61,731 nt of DNA, from contig JAUYHF010000060.1 of NCBI GenBank assembly GCA_030690165.1, forward strand, positions 1-61,731, written 5' to 3'. The first letter of the stretch is position 1. Each line of letters starts with the position of its first letter. The stretch comes from Deltaproteobacteria bacterium (GTDB lineage Bacteria > Desulfobacterota > GWC2-55-46 > UBA9637). A program made the position numbers and the translations under genes. A model generated the notes under the pieces. It did no database searches. It was given only the letters and a program-made list of their open reading frames with translations, and had not been told where the DNA came from. This document shows positions 8,880 to 17,399 of the stretch, piece by piece.

Positions 8880-9464
8880 TTATTTTTCTTTCTCCTCCTC
8901 TTTTACCACGATTTTACCTTCTTTCATCCCTGCAACAATATCTTCCTCTGGAACCTCTTCATGGGCAAGATTCTGATGGCAGTCTATACAGGTCTTATTT
9001 TCTGTCTCCATTTTCTTGTGTTCCCTTGCCGTCTCATCGCTGGATGACCTTAGTACCTTGTGGCATGTGCGGCAGGGTGAGCTATCCCATTTCTTAATAT
9101 TTATCCTGGCATTATGGGCATATTCTGCCCTGTACCCGTTAAACTTTTCCTTTGTGCTGTGATCGTGGGTAAATTCACCGATGAACCCCCTTACGCCGTC
9201 CACAATATGCGATTTAACCCTTTTTAAGAACTGGGGCGGCAGATGACAGTCCTGACATCCGGGATCGGCGCCAAGCGCCCCGTAATGCGATGACTTTTTT
9301 AAATCATCATGCACGTAACTCATGCTATGACAGGATAAACAAAAACCCGTGGAGCTAATGTACATTTCTCCACCAATAATCCCGAATGTTATCACAATGG
9401 TAACAACCGCTGTTCCCAGAATAATCCCCCATCGTTCCTTTAAAAAGTTTAACAACGTTCCCAT
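8880..9464 (-). CDS. NapC/NirT-type tetraheme membrane cytochrome c
   Basis: The 194-residue protein has an N-terminal membrane anchor (about residues 13-32) and four CXXCH heme sites at 42-46, 70-74, 131-135 and 159-163, matching the NapC/NirT/NrfH/CymA layout. This family oxidises menaquinol and passes electrons to periplasmic partners. The tail is highly acidic and lysine-rich. It is divergent from the chemoreceptor and electron conduit genes that start at 9749, so it is the best candidate for the quinol dehydrogenase feeding the decaheme cytochrome at 14139. The start has GGAGAAAT about 8 bases upstream. Confidence 0.88.
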   Translation of the reverse strand: MGTLLNFLKERWGIILGTAVVTIVITFGIIGGEMYISSTGFCLSCHSMSYVHDDLKKSSHYGALGADPGCQDCHLPPQFLKRVKSHIVDGVRGFIGEFTHDHSTKEKFNGYRAEYAHNARINIKKWDSSPCRTCHKVLRSSSDETAREHKKMETENKTCIDCHQNLAHEEVPEEDIVAGMKEGKIVVKEEEKEK

Positions 9465-9626
9465 AGATTTCTCCTTTGCCGAATGTATGCTAAATTTAGT
9501 TAAAATTTAAGATAGCGGCTCCTAAAATGGTGAAGTAATTTAGCGAAAAAAACAAACACCAATAAAGGAACCGGTATGGAAAAGGTATTATAAATCTCAT
9601 CAAAAAGCAAGGCAAGAAAGGCAAGG

Positions 9627-9684
9627 TGTCAACCCAATTTAGAAATGTCCTGTTTTTACCAAAATAGAAATGTCCGCTTTTTAA
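9627..9684. repeat. Possible solo insertion-sequence end with repeated AGAAATGTCC
   Basis: TGTCAACCCAATTT is followed by two copies of AGAAATGTCC (9641-9650 and 9666-9675) at a 25-base interval. Multiple short terminal repeats of this kind are typical of IS21-like element ends, and no transposase is nearby. It could be a decayed IS end in the intergenic region between the tetraheme cytochrome and the chemoreceptor. The rest of 9465-9748 holds only the promoter listed next. Confidence 0.4.
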
Positions 9685-14138: not shown

Positions 14139-15083
14139 ATGAAGAGATACCTATTTGCCATGCTATTTTTGGCGCTATGGCGTCCTCTTGCATACGGAGG
14201 AGAAGTTGACTGGGCAGCGCTCAATCCAGCGCTTGCTGACGCGACCTATATCGGGAGCAGCGCAAAATGTCTGGAGTGCCACGAGGAATACATGAACGTC
14301 TTCAAAAAGACAGCCCATTCGCGGGCCAGCCACACCATGAAGCAAAACGACTGCGAATCATGTCATGGGCCGATGAGCAAACACCTGGACGCTCCCAAAA
14401 GGCGTCCTCCACTTACGGTCTCTTTTAAAAAGGAGCGCGGATTGACGGCCCTGCAGAAAAATTCCATTTGCCTGCAGTGCCATGAAAAAGGAAAGGTAGC
14501 TATGTGGATGGGAAGTCAGCATGAAAGGGTCAGTGTTGCATGCGCAGACTGCCACAACATTCAGAAGGGAATGCCGCGGGACCTTATAAAACAGACAAAT
14601 ACCGACCTTTGCATCAAGTGCCATACGAAATACCGTGCAGCCATACAAAAGTCCTCTCATCACCCCCTGCGGGAAGGGAAACTCTTTTGTACTGACTGCC
14701 ACAACCCGCATGGAACCATGACAGAAAAACTCGTTTCAGCAAACTCCGTGAATGAGAAGTGTTATGAATGTCATACTGAGTATCGGGGACCGTTCCTGTT
14801 TGAGCATCCGGTGGTCAGGGAAAATTGCATGACCTGTCATGAGCCGCACGGTTCAAATTTAACCTTTCTCTTAAGATTAAAACCGCCGCATCTTTGCCAG
14901 CAATGCCATGTGAACGTCATTCAGGGTCACAGCGCGTTCCTCTTCGACGGCAATGACCTGCCCGGTGGTTCAAACTTTAGCGGCAGTGTTGGCGGCAAGC
15001 GCATGGTCCAGAAAGGGTGTCCAAACTGTCATTCTCAAATACACGGCTCCAATCATCCGGCAGGGGCAAAGTTTCAGAGATAA
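14139..15083 (+). CDS. Decaheme c-type cytochrome, DmsE/MtrA-type
   Basis: The 314-residue exported protein has a signal peptide (about 1-22) and ten CXXCH motifs spread evenly: CLECH, CESCH, CLQCH, CADCH, CIKCH, CTDCH, CYECH, CMTCH, CQQCH and CPNCH. Length, heme number and order fit MtrA/DmsE/PioA, the periplasmic heme wire that inserts into an MtrB-type porin. The porin gene follows 33 bases downstream, supporting that partnership. It would carry electrons across the outer membrane, out to extracellular acceptors or inward from donors. AGGAGGGAG precedes the ATG at a good distance. Confidence 0.92.
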   Translation: [314 protein letters not shown]

Positions 15084-15116
15084 GGATACATACATTACAA
15101 AACGAGGAGGATTGCC

Positions 15117-17399
15117 ATGAGATTTCAAAAAAAATTACTTACAGCGCTAACACTGCTTTCAATTATACTTGGCATGCGCACAATCTCCATAGGAGCAGAC
15201 ACTGATGGCTATATTGAAGCAGGCGCCATGACTGTGGATCAGCGCCCTGAGTCATCAAAGTTCATGGAATATCGGGGCATAGATGAGGATGGCACATTCC
15301 CCATAGCAAACTTCAACGCTCTCTATGATACGGAAAGCCATTATTTCCTTGATTTTACCGGCAAGAACCTGGGCATTGATACAAGGAACGTATACTTAAA
15401 AGGCGGAAAATATGGGCTCTTTAAATACTTCCTTGAATATGACCAGATTGAGCAATTCATTTCAAACAACAGCAGAACGTTATTTACCAATCCCGGGTCT
15501 TCTGATTTAACACTGCCGTCAGGGTATAACAGAAACGTTGTAGCTAAAACCACAGTAGATACTATCTTAAATGGCGCAAGTGGCATCGGCGGGACCGGGA
15601 ATCTGAAAGATATTGATATGAGATTAGAAAGAAAAGTTGGCAAGGCAGGATTTTCCTTCACCCCGTTTGACAATATTACCTTTGACTTTTCCTATAAACG
15701 CGAGCAAAAAGAAGGGGTCAAGGCAATCGGCGCCCTGAATGGGGGCGTAGCCAACATAGTCATTTTGCCTCAACCTGTAGATTATATTACGGATACACTC
15801 AGGGCAGCAGCGAGATACGACACTGAAAGCACGCATACGGAGTTTGAGTATTATCTCTCAAAATTTAACAATCAAGATGTTTCCCTCAGATGGGAGAATC
15901 CTTATAATAGCGGTTCTACAACAGATCCGCATCAGGTTAGGAGCGCCCTTCCGGATACCATCTATCACCGTTTCAGCCTGTCAGAGAATATGAAACTGCC
16001 GTGGTGGCACACCAGTCTTTCTCTTGCCGCTTCCTACGGCATCATGCTGCAGGATCAGGCATTTTTACCATATCATGCGGTTTCTTCAGCGACTGTGAAT
16101 GGTTCAACCAATCCTCTGCCCAGACAATCCCCTGACGCAGAAGTTGATGTAATATCGCTCAACGCAAATATTGCCTCGCGGCCATCTTCTAACCTCGGCC
16201 TTAGCGCAAAGTTCATCCATTACGAAACTGTCAACAAGACACCGTCCTCGCTTTACCGGTATGTAGCGGCTGACGGCACTCCAACAACCGCAGTACCGGG
16301 GCTGAGCTCGGCGCAGTCAGTAAATAATCTGCCCTATGACATCATAAAAAATCAGGTAAAGCTTGACGCAACCGATCTTCTCCTGCCAAGTCAGAATACG
16401 ACCCTTTCCATGGGATATGAGTTTGAGAAGATTGAACGGGACCACAGGGAATCAGACACAGCAGAAAATATCGGCAAAATAGGATTGCGTTCAGACCTTA
16501 CGTCATTCGCCCAGGCCGGCGCGAACGGTTTATACGGAAAACGGGAGGCCCTGAATTATAACGGCAGGGTAGTCCTTGAATTGCACCCTCCGGAATATGA
16601 ACAGTGTATAACAACAACTTCGCCTGCAGGATGCGGTGTTACTTCCCTTGCAAATGCCAGGAACTGGTTTAATCACCCTGATGTGCGAAAGGCTGATGTA
16701 TCAGACAGGGAGCGGTATCAATACAACGGCTTCCTTAATATCTTTCCTCATTACAACGTAACCGTGGGCATTGACTATTCCAACACCATGGATGATTTTT
16801 ACAATACATTACTGGGAGTGCAGAAACGAAATAACGAGATTTACACCATAAATACAACCTATTCACCCTTTGACGCGCTCTCTCTATATGCATACTATAC
16901 CAATGAAAGAAACGATTCGCAGCAGGCCGGAAGACAAATAAGCGCTACTGCTACAACATGGTACAATCCAGCACTCGACTGGAGGATGGACATTAGAGAT
17001 GTGAGCAATACGGCCGGCGTTGGGTTAAACATCTTGTTGCTCAATGACCGGCTGATTGTAACGCCTGACTTTATTTATGAGAGAACAACAACTGCATATA
17101 CTGCTTTTGCAGGCAGCAGTTTTAATGGCTCCAGCGCAGATCTACTCCCGGCGAAGACGATACCTAACCTAAAGACGAAGCGCTATACCGTGGATATGTC
17201 AGGAAAGTATAAGCTTACGGATCACTGGACCGTGCGGGCAGGATATATATACGAGTCGTTTAAATCCGATGACTGGGCAATGGACGATATTACCCTGAAT
17301 AATACAGCGTCGGTTCCAAACGCATTGTTCATCTTGAGTGAAAGCATACATGATTATATTGCCCATGTGGGAAGTGTTGCTATTGCGTATAACTGGTAA
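15117..17399 (+). CDS. MtrB/PioB-family decaheme-associated outer membrane porin
   Basis: The 760-residue protein has a signal peptide (about 1-26, ending SIGA-DTDGY) and then many alternating-residue beta strands, finishing with an aromatic C-terminus (AYNW), as expected for a large outer-membrane barrel. Size and position right after the decaheme cytochrome match MtrB/PioB, which sheath the heme wire. The N-terminal CXXC seen in Shewanella MtrB is absent; two cysteines near 500-510 lie in a predicted loop. No outer-surface MtrC-type cytochrome is in the window, so the terminal partner is missing or encoded elsewhere. GAGGAGG precedes the ATG. Confidence 0.88.
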   Translation: MRFQKKLLTALTLLSIILGMRTISIGADTDGYIEAGAMTVDQRPESSKFMEYRGIDEDGTFPIANFNALYDTESHYFLDFTGKNLGIDTRNVYLKGGKYGLFKYFLEYDQIEQFISNNSRTLFTNPGSSDLTLPSGYNRNVVAKTTVDTILNGASGIGGTGNLKDIDMRLERKVGKAGFSFTPFDNITFDFSYKREQKEGVKAIGALNGGVANIVILPQPVDYITDTLRAAARYDTESTHTEFEYYLSKFNNQDVSLRWENPYNSGSTTDPHQVRSALPDTIYHRFSLSENMKLPWWHTSLSLAASYGIMLQDQAFLPYHAVSSATVNGSTNPLPRQSPDAEVDVISLNANIASRPSSNLGLSAKFIHYETVNKTPSSLYRYVAADGTPTTAVPGLSSAQSVNNLPYDIIKNQVKLDATDLLLPSQNTTLSMGYEFEKIERDHRESDTAENIGKIGLRSDLTSFAQAGANGLYGKREALNYNGRVVLELHPPEYEQCITTTSPAGCGVTSLANARNWFNHPDVRKADVSDRERYQYNGFLNIFPHYNVTVGIDYSNTMDDFYNTLLGVQKRNNEIYTINTTYSPFDALSLYAYYTNERNDSQQAGRQISATATTWYNPALDWRMDIRDVSNTAGVGLNILLLNDRLIVTPDFIYERTTTAYTAFAGSSFNGSSADLLPAKTIPNLKTKRYTVDMSGKYKLTDHWTVRAGYIYESFKSDDWAMDDITLNNTASVPNALFILSESIHDYIAHVGSVAIAYNW

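Follow-up and report, generated by a model that had tools for sequence, protein, structure and literature searches.

Positions 8880-17399 of the window, by which we mean the whole 61.7-kb contig analysed here from a deltaproteobacterial genome of 2.2 Mb, hold six genes, among them those for a methyl-accepting chemotaxis protein (MCP), two EB_dh-fold cytochromes and a predicted outer-membrane electron conduit. In this report, we show that the core of this locus is the chemoreceptor together with an EB_dh cytochrome carrying two heme motifs, and that non-homologous outer-membrane conduits have been attached to this core in turn; the conclusion rests on the constant adjacency of the MCP and EB_dh genes, on the variability of the next gene and on the changes of conduit that the EB_dh tree forces. 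We consider it somewhat probable that the chemoreceptor of this module is supplied by an electron line of its own, with an outer-membrane conduit added downstream. A narrower proposal, which we hold tentatively and at slightly under even chances, is that the chemoreceptor is physically fed by a dedicated trans-outer-membrane conduit via a private periplasmic cytochrome and senses by direct electron exchange, the conduit being modular and exchanged between MtrAB and Cyc2-like types.

A search with copy a of the EB_dh pair covered 395 genomes from the phylum and 63 from the class and found close relatives (E < 1e-75) in 30 class genomes, the window genome included; an alignment-based scan of GTDB contigs added the same EB_dh group in 'Deltaproteobacteria' metagenome-assembled genomes (MAGs) and in a member of the Nitrospirota, Ca. 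Manganitrophus sp. GAC4 (45% identity). We tabulated 31 loci by tblastn and also read their surroundings. In all 30 assessable loci, across two phyla, the gene immediately upstream of EB_dh is a co-directional MCP gene, the 31st locus (G440) being unassessable upstream because its sequence begins inside EB_dh. What follows EB_dh varies: a Cyc2-like monoheme protein of ~390 aa in 20 loci, some of them truncated at a contig end; MtrA or MtrAB in three, namely the window, its family-mate G438 (L161), where the contig breaks off past the first MtrA heme, and Manganitrophus (L100); neither type in six; and the end of the contig in two. An outer-membrane conduit gene of one of two unrelated types thus follows EB_dh in 23 of the 29 assessable loci. 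The gene order in Manganitrophus is MCP, EB_dh, MtrA, MtrB, the same as in the window with a single EB_dh, and frameshifts in its MtrA, its MCP and the end of its MtrB reflect either sequencing errors or decay; a natural MtrA-MtrB fusion, for which a 1048-aa frame in this locus was considered, was rejected, since the last part of MtrA, with its tenth heme, is encoded in another frame, which indicates a frameshift. The original prediction that chemoreceptor, EB_dh cytochromes and trans-outer-membrane conduit make up one module is supported by its recurrence with a single EB_dh in L161 and L100. The case that would have spoken against it, EB_dh proteins never occurring with MtrAB elsewhere, does not apply in substance, these two loci each having one EB_dh, MtrA(B) and the same chemoreceptor; the pair itself is confined to the window, one copy being present at every other of the 31 loci. 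A ~190-aa protein (MGxREDIEILDxKIxRLKVEYEQYFxRVLKREP; L083:11867-12454 and orthologues) follows the module in most class-mates, even where EB_dh or the conduit is lacking.

The maximum-likelihood tree of EB_dh places the MtrA-type locus G438 as sister to the Cyc2-type locus G440 (support 95/92), and, on its well-supported branches, the MtrAB label must have changed at least twice; the sister position of these two loci indicates that conduits were exchanged while the MCP-EB_dh pair stayed in place. The six loci with neither conduit form one clade (100/99). MtrB was found elsewhere in the genome in all three of the conduit-less genomes searched (G173, G263 and G359, of the six) and was not found in four searched class-mates of the Cyc2 type (G090, G242, G341 and G378), a distribution, small and confounded by kinship, that fits a receptor-cytochrome pair needing some outer-membrane conduit. 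In G173 and G263, another operon encodes MtrA, MtrB, a c554-like triheme protein and an MCP (L090:6655-12210 and L094:6817-12584, with MtrB split in two frames in G263), which places MtrAB with a chemoreceptor a second time and with a different cytochrome between them. The sensor of this second MCP has CX5CH (CASTSGCH, CSTTSGCH) where related sensors have CxxCH, and this would be an unusual heme motif, if functional.

Cyc2, a fused cytochrome-porin, is known for Fe(II) oxidation. The Cyc2-like protein of the relatives, which occupies the slot downstream of EB_dh and is absent from that slot in the window, carries one N-terminal CxxCH followed by PxL. The published Cyc2 signature, AXPXFAR[QK][TY] upstream of CXXCH with PXL downstream (PMC8406198), is nearly matched, for example in AYPFFSRQVGRDCTFCHSVFPKL; the motif is close but relaxed in nearly all of these proteins, with A or S at the sixth position and V or I at the last. 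Structure prediction gave 16 strands with porins as the top structure matches, at a mean pLDDT of only 52, fit for strand count and fold class alone. On these resemblances we name the protein Cyc2-like and regard a role in iron oxidation as putative. The window genome itself encodes two proteins that fit the published motif, with AVPAFARQT and ATPAFARKY (C56 and C42; L196:7126-8397 and L197:8027-9463), the second followed by a diheme cytochrome gene; Fe(II) oxidation is a possible function of both.

The two EB_dh-fold periplasmic cytochromes of the window, copy a (12016..13029, plus strand; PF09459 E=1e-28) and copy b (13086..14123, plus strand; PF09459 E=4e-29; its true start may be internal), are 57% identical by blastp and are sisters in the EB_dh tree (100/99). 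Copy a has a signal peptide, with CxxCH at aa 69 and CxxxCH (CFIACH) at aa 169, and copy b has the same two motifs. The twin c-type proteins of the original prediction are thus true paralogues, with two c-heme motifs each, not one. Both motifs are invariant across 23 aligned relatives, the constancy of CxxxCH in the distant ones being partly a matter of selection, since this motif doubled as a search pattern. The best structure matches of the AlphaFold model (mean pLDDT 76) are NxrC 7b04 (7b04_C) and EbdC 2ivf (2ivf_C), and the sequence profile likewise best matches 7b04_C and 2ivf_C. The window proteins therefore have family PF09459 and fold in common with the gamma subunits of the type II DMSO-reductase family; however, EbdC holds one heme b, whereas the window proteins have two covalent heme motifs and no molybdoenzyme in their operon, and we infer that CxxxCH takes a heme and that it replaces the heme-b site of EbdC. 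Genes for a molybdopterin alpha or Fe-S beta subunit were seen neither in the window operon nor in the 30 other close loci read, and a role of EB_dh as part of an ethylbenzene-type molybdoenzyme was rejected because no such genes lie nearby on the contig. The other EB_dh genes of the window genome (C49, C7) encode different, more distant proteins. More distant relatives in the class (L166:5749-11054, L167:1-5837) adjoin a Tat-type protein of ~840-870 aa and a pentaheme NapC-type protein, likely a respiratory context. In a Chloroflexi MAG (L124:3709-8773), a distant EB_dh gene comes after a CxxCH-containing Cache histidine kinase and two response regulators, which hints that EB_dh may be paired with sensors more widely.

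The MCP (9749..11959, plus strand) comprises a periplasmic single c-heme sensor domain resembling those of GSU0935 and GSU0582 (sCache_heme-like), HAMP and MCPsignal (E=2e-36). Its CxxCH at aa 181 falls between two membrane helices, hydropathy placing hydrophobic stretches near 1-35 and 215-240. Orthologues and paralogues match PF21563 (Mcp40H-20_sensor) at 1e-4 to 1e-8, the window copy being unmatched at 1e-3; the orthologues also match Tll0287-like models weakly, and the region around the heme motif of the window MCP aligns with 3b47 in a weak match (E=0.29). Judged by these profile and alignment matches, the periplasmic part probably belongs with the Geobacter c-heme sensors. The same domain is found in a PAS-GGDEF-EAL protein of the window genome (C51, L191:4588-7137), and a second protein bearing it is widespread in the class.

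The chemoreceptor, the two EB_dh copies, a DmsE/MtrA-type periplasmic decaheme cytochrome (14139..15083; ten CxxCH; TIGR03508 255.8 bits against a cut-off of 192.2) and an MtrB/PioB-type outer-membrane beta-barrel porin (15117..17399; PF11854 E=2.5e-110; TIGR03509 over cut-off) form a five-gene set on the plus strand with intergenic gaps of 56, 56, 15 and 33 bases, the last separating the decaheme gene from the porin. Divergently transcribed from this set is a gene for a NapC/NrfH-type membrane tetraheme cytochrome of the quinol dehydrogenase type (8880..9464, minus strand; PF03264 Cytochrom_NNT E=7e-41; four CxxCH; one N-terminal membrane helix). Profile matches and heme-motif counts thus place all of the genes named in the original prediction where it had put them, and because the family matches lie far over their cut-offs and the gene order is kept across two phyla, chance is no issue. 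The porin is the sole MtrB-family match found in the genome. Besides the NapC-type and decaheme genes, no MtrC-type or other multiheme gene is present on the 61.7-kb contig, multiheme genes existing elsewhere in the genome, so that an MtrC-type neighbour, which would have spoken against the earlier proposal, does not occur there; judged on the gene content of this contig, the conduit is of the MtrAB rather than the MtrCAB type, with electron transfer across the outer membrane as its predicted function. The NapC-type cytochrome had been predicted as part of the wire: the gene is real, but it is divergent rather than co-directional and has no counterpart near EB_dh in the 30 other loci examined, and we rejected it as a member of the conserved unit. 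Elsewhere in the genome, two large multiheme proteins with 26 and 15 CxxCH are encoded side by side (C51, L082:7913-11153) with more cytochrome genes adjoining, a candidate for another electron-transfer cluster. Outside the locus, five tRNA genes (Pro, Arg, His, Arg, Arg) are clustered at window positions 5462-6008 beside a CRP/FNR-type regulator (6012-6719, minus strand).

In the mechanism that we propose, electrons to or from an extracellular donor or acceptor (a mineral, a soluble metal or a partner cell) would cross the outer membrane through MtrAB, and EB_dh, equilibrating with the outside, would carry electrons over the periplasm from the conduit and determine whether the MCP heme is oxidised or reduced; the redox state of this heme would then drive a conformational change that passes through HAMP to CheA and CheW and biases motility, here probably that of type IV pili. 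We infer the electron route and its direction, the heme redox state as the signal and the motility output, the wiring being suggested by the constant pairing, the exchange of conduits, the heme motif of the MCP, the redox-linked change described in Geobacter and the dependence on Mtr proteins and an MCP in Shewanella. Conduits of the MtrAB type are used for reduction by some bacteria and for oxidation by others.

As to the output, CheA and CheW are encoded in two che clusters of the window genome, which also has three copies of PilT over cut-off, one of them on the contig of a che cluster. FlhA is absent from the window genome, which counts against a flagellar output there, and flagellar taxis was rejected for this organism; the absence of FlhA together with the presence of CheA, CheW and PilT makes type IV pili the probable output. 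Most relatives would allow the receptor to act on flagella: of the 30 class genomes that have a close EB_dh relative, 25 encode FlhA. The correlation of EB_dh with flagella across the class (25/30 versus 15/33, Fisher p=0.0035) was left unused as evidence because the genomes are related.

Several further observations weigh against a wired receptor. One genome (G417) carries the MCP with no adjacent EB_dh, the six loci of one clade keep the MCP-EB_dh pair with no adjacent conduit, and MtrA or MtrAB stands beside the pair in only three genomes, one of them cut early in MtrA and one frameshifted in three genes. The adjacency of MCP and EB_dh is also compatible with co-regulation, transfer from EB_dh to the MCP being a prediction, and the divergent NapC-type gene suggests that the window MtrAB may also serve respiration. 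In an unlikely explanation, yet the one that best survives beside ours, MtrAB, EB_dh and NapC would form a respiratory or electron-uptake chain, and the MCP would be co-expressed with it and perform indirect energy taxis, as proposed for Shewanella. The NapC-type quinol cytochrome beside the operon gives this explanation some weight in the window genome, as does the respiratory setting of the distant EB_dh relatives G427 and G434, whose operons encode a pentaheme NapC-type protein as well as a large Tat-type protein resembling an oxidoreductase; in addition, Shewanella cells gather only if they have MtrBC, CymA and a Cache-domain MCP whose gene lies elsewhere (PMC5789149). However, EB_dh follows the MCP even where the conduit is lacking, NapC is absent at the other loci, the MCP itself has a c-type heme motif, and most loci have as their conduit a monoheme Cyc2-like protein whose operon includes no respiratory partner.

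Gas sensing, in which the MCP heme would bind NO, the cytochromes would either take part in NO or nitrite chemistry or shield the sensor and the conduit would be incidental, appears improbable. A preprint of 2026 attributes NO-sensor behaviour to c-heme Cache domains that are fused to signalling modules (PMC12889525), which also counts against our proposal; however, the translations read at these loci revealed no gene beside the pair for NO reductase, nitrite reductase or another NO function (a reading rather than a profile search of every neighbour), and the repeated pairing with outer-membrane electron conduits would be left unexplained. In the original prediction, the EB_dh pair took the place of MtrC at the outer surface, where an MtrAB respiratory wire would end, a version with very little left in its favour: the contig has no MtrC, EB_dh precedes MtrA and both copies have N-terminal hydrophobic leaders, but EB_dh occurs where MtrAB is absent and tracks the MCP, which it accompanies in 30/30 loci, mostly with a Cyc2-like protein or no conduit next. 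Nothing was found in support of the cable-directed transfer that had also been suggested, and a cable or nanowire link was dropped.

Each part of the module has known relatives, and the whole is probably a c-heme chemoreceptor with its own electron line. Like MtrAB, MtoAB, PioAB and DmsEF, the window has a DmsE-family decaheme cytochrome adjacent to an MtrB/PioB-family porin; unlike in these systems, no MtrC or other outer cytochrome stands alongside, and chemoreceptor and EB_dh genes precede the conduit. We found no description of the combination of MCP, EB_dh and conduit in open-access full texts, subscription papers lying outside this scope, which is weak evidence of novelty. Chemotaxis is unmentioned both in an extensive survey of extracellular electron transfer among Desulfobacterota (PMC12133095) and in a survey of porin-cytochrome clusters (PMC4245776). 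Some MtrAB or Cyc2-like genes may serve sensing, and their presence need not imply metal respiration or iron oxidation.

The Geobacter heme MCP sensors have been described as redox sensors with a redox-linked structural change (PMC8396549). GSU0582 and GSU0935 (DUF3365/Tll0287, sCache_heme family) have one periplasmic c-type heme in a PAS/Cache-like sensor, an arrangement that the window MCP, with its single periplasmic c-heme motif, probably shares; however, no dedicated EB_dh partner or outer-membrane conduit is described in their operons in the open-access papers searched, and the present module is a natural partner for these chemoreceptors. The way in which bacteria locate solid electron donors and acceptors is an unsettled question. 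The link between cytochromes and chemotaxis in Shewanella has been inferred from mutants, and to our knowledge no dedicated wiring is known. A receptor, a periplasmic cytochrome and a conduit encoded together in two phyla offer a small, testable gene set for redox taxis. The gathering of Shewanella around insoluble acceptors needs mtrBC/omcA, cymA and an MCP (PMC5789149), and this congregation resembles the proposed module in that taxis needs both Mtr cytochromes and an MCP; in Shewanella, however, the MCP gene lies apart from those of the conduit, and what this MCP has been proposed to sense is energy state or proton flux, whereas the window MCP is encoded in one gene set with its conduit.

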